From: a virus
Length of the DNA stretch: 43,195 nucleotides
Reading direction: 5' to 3' (one strand)
IMG/VR virus record: IMGVR_UViG_3300020438_000078
Span: 1-43,195 of that record
The notes beneath the pieces were generated by a model, which saw only the letters and a program-made list of their open reading frames with translations, did not search any database and was not told where the DNA came from. A program made the translations under genes and the position numbers. Positions 40,060-42,867 of this stretch are shown here, piece after piece (the first letter of the stretch is position 1; every line of letters begins with the position of its first letter).

Positions 40060-40088
40060 ATTATACAGGCAATTACATCCGTTGTCAA
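40060..40088 (-). promoter_or_regulatory. Sigma70-type promoter, minus strand
   Basis: TTGACA (40088-40083), 17-bp spacer, TATAAT (40065-40060). It is followed by a normal leader with GGAGGGAT. Confidence 0.88.
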
Positions 40089-40260: not shown

Positions 40261-40289
40261 TTGACACGCGACCCCGTTGCGGGTATACT
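40261..40289 (+). promoter_or_regulatory. Plus-strand promoter 1 in the 40106-40504 gene-free stretch
   Basis: TTGACA (40261-40266), 17-bp spacer, TATACT (40284-40289). It is preceded by GTGCAAAAAAGAC and followed by GGCGC. The 40106-40504 stretch has no convincing gene; it holds this repeat pair and a GC-rich patch at 40130-40150 (GGGGGGCCGCGCGCGGGG). Confidence 0.75.
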
Positions 40290-40383
40290 GGCGCCGGGCC
40301 GCTTCTCGATTTTTCACTTAGCTTTTGCACTGGCGCAGACTTGCCACTTTGGAAAAAATTTGGTGCACACCCGCAAAAAAGAC

Positions 40384-40412
40384 TTGACATTGCTCGCTTT
40401 TGCACTTATACT
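40384..40412 (+). promoter_or_regulatory. Plus-strand promoter 2, repeat of promoter 1
   Basis: TTGACA (40384-40389), 17-bp spacer, TATACT (40407-40412), with the same GCAAAAAAGAC before and GGCGC after. The pair is 123 bp apart. Transcripts would run into the antisense strand of the polyphosphate kinase gene. Confidence 0.75.
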
Positions 40413-40504
40413 GGCGCAGGCAACACCAACGTTCGCTTCGTTACTCTACTACTGGCGCCCCCGCGCCGAAAATCCCGAAAAATCCAGAAATTTTTGGGCG
40501 GGCG

Positions 40505-40520
40505 TGTTTCACGTGGAACA
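40505..40520. other. Canonical chromosomal-type parS site
   Basis: TGTTTCACGTGGAACA at 40505-40520 reads TGTTCCACGTGAAACA on the other strand, the standard ParB-binding parS of bacterial chromosomes, with all 16 bases matching. It includes the TGA stop of the polyphosphate kinase gene. No ParA or ParB gene is seen in the window, so a host ParB would be the binder. Confidence 0.85.
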
Positions 40521-41120
40521 TTCCGCGAGTAGCACCTTGAGAAAATTTTCGATTCCGATTTTTTTGTCATTATAATCTATTGTGTTCCAGTCTGGCGAAA
40601 CCACGCGCTCTTTTAAAATGCTCATTCGGTCATAATGTGATAATGCGTTTTCATCATTCTCGGAAAATTTCCAATATGTTAGAGGTGAAATTTTTCTCGC
40701 CTCGATTCGCGTTCTCTGTTCCGATTCGGAAATTGAAAGCCAGAATTTAATGAATTGAACGCCACCAGCGATTTGGCCAGCTTCCCATTCAAGATGGTTA
40801 TTCAAAAAATTTTCGTATTGTTTATCAGTACACCAGCCGTTCATTTTTTGAACCATCGCCCGCGAATACCAAGAGCGGTCATAGAAAACGATTTGATTTT
40901 TTGCGGGCATTTTGGTTGCCCAAAATTTGAGCCAGCTTCGCATAACATTTTCGGATGGTTTAGTTGATGGGACAATGCTATACCATGCAGGATTTAAATA
41001 TTCAGTAATCGCCCGAATAGTCGAGGATTTTCCGGCAGTATCTCGCCCCTCTAAAATTACAGCAATGCGTTTTTCATTCGCGTCTGCAATTCGGTTAAGT
41101 TGTATTAGTAAATTTTTCAT
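40509..41120 (-). CDS. Polyphosphate kinase 2-like
   Basis: A 203-residue PPK2 starting at ATG 41120 (ATGA overlap with the upstream gene; a longer frame to 41222 is a shadow). Walker A is EGRDTAGKSSTIRAI (residues about 24-38), lid and substrate motifs include NPAWYSIVPSTKPSE, and Walker B is FYDRSWYSRA (79-86). KFWLSISESEQRTRIEAR also fits the family. PPK2 uses polyphosphate to phosphorylate nucleotides or the reverse. Its role would be energy or dNTP supply. The stop lies inside the parS site. Confidence 0.9.
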   Translation of the reverse strand: MKNLLIQLNRIADANEKRIAVILEGRDTAGKSSTIRAITEYLNPAWYSIVPSTKPSENVMRSWLKFWATKMPAKNQIVFYDRSWYSRAMVQKMNGWCTDKQYENFLNNHLEWEAGQIAGGVQFIKFWLSISESEQRTRIEARKISPLTYWKFSENDENALSHYDRMSILKERVVSPDWNTIDYNDKKIGIENFLKVLLAECST

Positions 41121-41683
41121 ATTGCGTATCCTTTTTCTTCTGGATTTTCTAGTGGAGTCGGGCAACCATGAATTCCAGTTTTCCGTTTCCAGTTTACAGT
41201 TTCTAAACCGATTTTTTTGCAATCTTGCCTTTGGGCATTTGCAAATTTCTTTTTAGCTAGTTTTTCATTCATGTTGAAAAATTCGCTGTGACCGCCAACA
41301 GGCTTTTTACCTTTCGCGGTTAAATCGCGGAATAATCCAGCTAGTCGAAAATTTTTGTTTTTCTTGTGGAAAAATTGTTCGCTGGAAAGCGTCTCGTCAA
41401 ATGTGCCAGTAGTCAAACCGATTAATTCGGCTTTTAATGAACCAGTGGGCAAATCGTGCGATTCTTCAATATTGCGTAGCGTTTCAATGATGCGAGATTC
41501 AACGCCATTAAATCCACCAGCTCGGCAATATTTTGCAAAGCCGTTTTTTATGATGCACATTCCAGCAAATGCGGGAACGAGTTTTCCTAGTCCCTTTAAT
41601 CGCCATAAATAATTGAATCCGAAATCATCAAATGGCGAACCATCTATTGAATTAGGGGACATTGTAGAGTTTAAAGTTTTCAT
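41117..41683 (-). CDS. Unknown protein upstream of PPK2, 188 aa
   Basis: A 188-residue product starting MKTLNSTMSPNSIDGSPFDD. Segments include FNYLWRLKGLGKLVPAFAGM, YCRAGGFNGVESRIIETLRN and GGHSEFFNMNEKLAKKKFAN, ending in a basic tail with a Cys/Pro motif (GIHGCPTPLENPEE). I recognise no family. It is translationally coupled to PPK2, which suggests a shared process. Base use (many CGA, TTCG, CCAG) differs from the rest of the window. Confidence 0.65.
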   Translation of the reverse strand: MKTLNSTMSPNSIDGSPFDDFGFNYLWRLKGLGKLVPAFAGMCIIKNGFAKYCRAGGFNGVESRIIETLRNIEESHDLPTGSLKAELIGLTTGTFDETLSSEQFFHKKNKNFRLAGLFRDLTAKGKKPVGGHSEFFNMNEKLAKKKFANAQRQDCKKIGLETVNWKRKTGIHGCPTPLENPEEKGYAI

Positions 41684-42846: not shown

Positions 42847-42867
42847 AAATGAGAATCATTCTCATTT
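42847..42867. promoter_or_regulatory. Fur-box-like operator
   Basis: The 25-bp region 42845-42869 has 12-bp arms (CCAAATGAGAAT/ATTCTCATTTGG) around one central C. Its core AATGAGAATCATTCTCATT (42848-42866) satisfies every fixed position of the Vibrio/Shewanella-type Fur consensus AATGAnAATnATTnTCATT. A 1-nt loop makes a terminator hairpin unlikely. Confidence 0.75.

Follow-up and report, generated by a model that had tools for sequence, protein, structure and literature searches.

In bacteriophage phi29, binding of Spo0A suspends the lytic cycle and Spo0J entraps the phage chromosome in the spore, according to PMC9437464, which cites Meijer 2005. The phi29 genome, as checked here, contains four exact copies of TGTTCCACGTGAAACA, and this precedent means that a parS in a phage without parAB is not unheard of. 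A single parS is enough for segregation or plasmid stabilisation when the Par proteins are supplied (PMC4368675, PMC7022226), and in non-RepA mycobacteriophages a non-coding RNA region adjoins the centromere (PMC7157519). Here we describe parS in a sizeable group of T5-like bacteriophages that are uncultured and, for the most part, marine. Our search of the parS/ParB literature, in which subscription journals were thinly covered, found no description of parS in T5-like or marine phages.

We analysed a linear IMG/VR record of 43,195 bp (the window), probably a fragment, whose relevant features are collected in Table 1. The 16-mer at 40505-40520 reads TGTTTCACGTGGAACA on the plus strand and TGTTCCACGTGAAACA on the minus strand, and as a 16-bp palindrome it falls within TGTTYCACGTGRAACA. 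Scanning the entire window recovered it with 0 mismatches on the minus strand and found no second parS-like site within 3 mismatches; a match to TGTTYCACGTGRAACA is expected ~4e-5 times per 43 kb if calculated as 4 sequences/4^16 with equal base use. An earlier note on this DNA had described a perfect 16/16 host-type parS with a chance expectation far below one, overlapping the stop codon of a PPK2 gene and adjoined by two plus-strand promoters, and all of this is borne out: the TGA of the PPK2 reading frame occupies 40511-40509, within parS, and the promoters lie at 40261-40289 and 40384-40412.

Table 1. Features of the parS locus and its surroundings in the 43,195-bp window.
Feature	Position	Strand	Details
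parS, putative host ParB-CTP loading site	40505..40520	-	exact match, single copy; minus strand TGTTCCACGTGAAACA
Spacer between parS and GC element	40468..40504	.	AT-rich inverted repeat in many relatives; weak in window
GC-rich element, fixed parS neighbour	40451..40467	+	minus strand GGCGCGGGGGCGCCAGT
Strong sigma70-type promoter aimed at parS	40384..40412	+	TTGACA-17-TATACT, upstream A-tract, GGCGC after -10
Second tandem promoter aimed at parS	40261..40289	+	TTGACA-17-TATACT
Consensus promoter aimed away from parS, for next early gene	40060..40088	-	TTGACA-17-TATAAT, 12/12
PPK2-family polyphosphate kinase gene	40509..41222	-	Pfam PF03976 E=4.3e-45; TGA stop inside parS
Fur-box-like 19-mer AATGAGAATCATTCTCATT	42848..42866	.	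perfect palindrome, consensus match only

The T5-like placement of the window rests on its DNA polymerase, a T5-type family A enzyme with ~43% identity, over the full length, to the polymerases of Vibrio and Aeromonas T5-like phages; a DnaB-type helicase and a ribonucleotide reductase are also encoded. Neither megablast nor a locus search returned a close cultured relative. The cultured T5-like phages Akh-2, pVp-1 and VEc33 have no parS within 2 mismatches, and parS is not a general trait of T5-like phages (Demerecviridae).

Relatives of the locus were picked by the pattern TTGGCGCGNGGGCGCCAGT, which describes the GC-rich element and contains no part of parS. The pattern is present in 77 viral contigs, 76 of which could be assessed, the remaining one ending too near the element to judge. 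The earlier note had proposed looking for conservation in related phages, and 66 of the 76 assessable contigs keep parS 20-250 bp upstream of the GC element, without exception on one and the same side. The match is exact in 51 of them and has one mismatch in the other 15; the 10 contigs without parS include several that are near-identical to each other. In bacterial genomes the pattern has 12 matches, 11 of them chance copies in GC-richer cellular DNA where parS is absent (best 5-7 mismatches) and the 12th in a phage-like contig of a metagenome-assembled genome (MAG), together with parS and the promoter motif. A contig of this phage group (L447, 5756 bp) was assigned to a proteobacterial MAG in which a different contig encodes ParB; this may be a host clue or a binning error.

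The extent of the conserved sequence was examined in 51 loci that carry parS at <=1 mismatch and share <70% identity over the 60 flanking bases. In these diverged loci 11 of the 16 columns are invariant and most parS columns hold 2.0 bits of information, compared with near-random flanks that mostly hold 0.02-0.3, so that conservation of the 16-mer exceeds that of its surroundings; this footprint supports but cannot replace the unbiased count given above, because the loci were preselected at <=1 mismatch. Variation is confined mainly to Y/R exchanges at positions 5 and 12, which pair with each other, and to the outermost base, with position 8 rarely affected. The commonest form is TGTTCCACGTGGAACA and the one-mismatch form is GGTTCCACGTGGAACA, both known from P. 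aeruginosa, as parS2/3 and parS1/4 (PMC4368675). We reject a chance match on the combined grounds of an exact single 16-mer, its presence in 66 of 76 element contigs and the conserved footprint. Since several inverted repeats crowd the locus, one might suspect a palindrome bound by some other host or phage protein, or an RNA or DNA hairpin, but the tolerated variants are known parS variants and the footprint stops at 16 bp, and we consider such a site very unlikely. Judged from sequence, the evidence supports a host-type parS under strong conservation, and the site very probably serves to load host ParB.

PPK2 relatives are encoded in 46 viral loci. In the four whose PPK2 is 68-100% identical to that of the window (L002-L005), parS lies over the stop codon as it does in the window; in most of the others it is found 9-685 bp past the PPK2 stop, in some with an intervening gene, and in L014 it is 4 kb away on the other side of PPK2. 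In the flanking DNA available for PPK2 relatives at 55-59% identity, and for a group at 66-67% identity (L007-L010), parS was not found. The earlier note had stated that it would give up its reading if relatives lost the 16-mer while keeping PPK2, and on this point the outcome is split: some PPK2-bearing relatives have no parS nearby and others have it hundreds to thousands of bases off, and the site is tied to the adjacent promoter array instead of to PPK2. Because the distance between parS and the PPK2 stop varies among relatives and the association with the array is kept, we reject the idea that parS is a by-product of the PPK2 coding end.

Read in the orientation of PPK2, the locus consists of the gene end, parS, the spacer, the GC element, one to four promoters aimed back at parS and the promoter of the next gene, the last of these being a single promoter aimed away from parS in most relatives. 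Common to the array promoters are CTTGACA and, after a 17-bp spacer, TATAAT or TATACT, preceded by an A-tract and followed by GC-rich sequence ahead of the start, and we take these GC-rich start regions to resemble those of rRNA promoters. Most of 54 related loci have tandem promoters, 1-3 by a strict pattern and up to 4 by a looser one. In the window (40261-40412) and in the 54 related loci the array promoters fire into a short non-coding interval and have no gene ahead of them. No meaningful match to a known RNA family was obtained at the locus, and a structured RNA made from the array is unsupported (z -0.65). Folding of 65 spacers gave a median z of -1.6, with long perfect stems in many, and z +0.4 for L360, a close relative whose spacer is the same as that of the window; the AT-rich inverted repeat is possibly a two-way terminator. 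A conserved, -35-like CTTGAC without a matching -10 is seen a few to ~15 bp before the GC element, on its parS side (for example in L353, L378 and L299). A replication origin was considered from GC skew and rejected, as the strand-normalised third-position skew carries no consistent signal; the skew minima near parS in G035, G040 and G027 (that in G029 is merely local) arise from gene orientation and thus give no support for an origin there.

The array provides the main rival to a centromere, namely a local transcriptional device in which ParB clamps at parS would form a roadblock or silencer, either shielding the PPK2 operon from the array or tuning the array itself. Promoters are aimed at parS in most of the 54 loci (75 units, compared with ~2 expected from background), and in P. 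aeruginosa ParB represses promoters adjoining the intergenic parS3 and parS4 (PMC5521831). In one relative, L373, two tandem Fur-like boxes stand at the expected parS position, as though a different host protein, bound there, might fill the role, but this is one case; moreover, many relatives already have a hairpin between the array and parS, and a generic roadblock needs no exact parS sequence. On balance we consider such a device rather unlikely as the main role of the site.

The number of sites per genome bears on the remaining proposals. Among 21 large records from this group, all of them fragments, 18 contain one parS each (<=1 mismatch). The window being a fragment, the earlier claim that ParA and ParB genes are missing was checked in these larger relatives, where it held: neither ParB_N (PF02195) nor AAA_31 ParA (PF13614) was found in the 21 records of up to 101 kb, and TIGR00180 ParB was absent from the 18 phage records searched. 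ParAB are thus likely to be missing from the whole genomes, to the extent that fragment sequences can speak for them. The same 21 records, up to 101 kb, contain no tyrosine integrase (PF00589). The group therefore shows neither the own ParA and ParB of a parABS phage-plasmid nor the tyrosine integrase of a temperate integrating phage; what these fragment records display is the phi29-like arrangement, parS without phage ParAB.

Several roles had been listed in the earlier note, and these counts narrow the list, the simple ParB decoy being the part that fares badly. Lytic replication would multiply the site, and its sequence is of the high-affinity type (PMC4368675), so replicated phage genomes could in principle titrate host ParB and disturb segregation of the host chromosome; yet there is mostly one site per genome, at a constant position and on a constant side of one element, where many sites anywhere would serve better, and we hold a decoy to be most unlikely. 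In a condensin-loader model, ParB at parS would recruit host SMC, which in turn would organise replicating phage DNA or disentangle it. One site per genome would suffice for this, and ParB-parS loads SMC in several bacteria (PMC7022226), but the model leaves the link to the promoter array unexplained and is in our judgement improbable.

We favour a centromere because the site is present in one copy, with exact sequence and in a fixed place, because no own ParAB accompanies it and because phi29 provides a precedent. In a scheme modelled on the reported phi29 use of host Spo0J, host ParB would bind the phage parS and load as sliding CTP clamps onto phage DNA beside the main promoter array; the result would be one partition complex per phage genome, by which the host ParA/nucleoid system would hold, position or segregate the phage DNA during a slow or deferred infection. 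That a functional host parS is kept by selection for such clamp loading and for a complex that is held, positioned or segregated in this way seems to us an evenly balanced proposition, and for use of the site specifically as a borrowed centromere we would go slightly less far. Virulence is the accepted lifestyle of T5-like phages, and segregation would therefore need a still hypothetical slow or carrier phase. Also against a centromere are the 10 element contigs without parS and the tight coupling to promoters, which fits a transcriptional role equally well. These phages probably borrow host machinery to hold, position or regulate their own DNA.

A second type of host site may belong to the same locus. 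The Fur-box-like AATGAGAATCATTCTCATT, which sits inside a 25-bp perfect inverted repeat, is conserved in many relatives, and in ~14 of 64 related loci Fur-like boxes lie upstream of parS at a distance of <=60 bp. As far as motif matches can, this suggests that the locus is a collecting point for binding sites of host proteins. From the presence of parS and Fur-like boxes at one locus we derive a more speculative and rather doubtful reading, that of a hold point sensing the state of the host, at which parS as a borrowed centromere, the Fur-like boxes and the rRNA-like promoters would together allow a virulent phage that has no lysogeny or partition genes to pause, remain bound to the host nucleoid and pass to daughter cells.

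Exact parS sites are also found on other viral contigs. Among the matches listed (L128-L207) the fully palindromic form accounts for 54 of 80, compared with ~1/7 expected by chance, and this excess suggests that further phages carry a real parS. These contigs are fragments, and among the matches listed only 2 of 50 encode ParB_N; a parS unaccompanied by ParB may be widespread among phages.

An entire group of phages, uncultured and mainly marine, appears to depend on the chromosome-segregation protein of the host and to have no partition system of its own. A mechanism known from a single phage, one linked to sporulation, would thereby extend to phages of other hosts. The combination of parS, GC element and promoter array offers a sequence marker for finding such phages, and the group makes persistence or pausing testable in phages commonly held to be strictly lytic.

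How the locus relates to described systems can be summarised as follows. P1 and mycobacteriophage RedRock likewise have a centromere on phage DNA, but these parABS phages or phage-plasmids encode their own ParA and ParB and use their own type of parS, none of which was found in the present group. Chromosomal parS sites of Pseudomonas and other bacteria have the same consensus and the same tolerated variants (PMC4368675); here, in contrast, a virus carries the site, which adjoins phage promoters and is not near any parAB operon. Phages with CtrA sites, associated with lytic deferment, resemble the group in that a host protein, a cell-cycle or regulatory one, has conserved sites on them (PMC9437464). 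The protein is a different one, and CtrA sites act at promoters; the parS described here lies downstream of an array aimed at it. The likeness to phi29 is closest, since this lytic phage, which uses host ParB, carries the identical host-type 16-mer TGTTCCACGTGAAACA and has sites for a host regulator, Spo0A, at its promoters (PMC9437464). Phi29 differs in having four exact sites and a sporulating host, while the present group usually has one site, fixed beside a promoter array, and consists of T5-like phages related by polymerase to phages of Gram-negative bacteria. What is new relative to phi29 is that T5-like phages have a single parS, placed in a conserved promoter locus and with Fur-like boxes in its vicinity.
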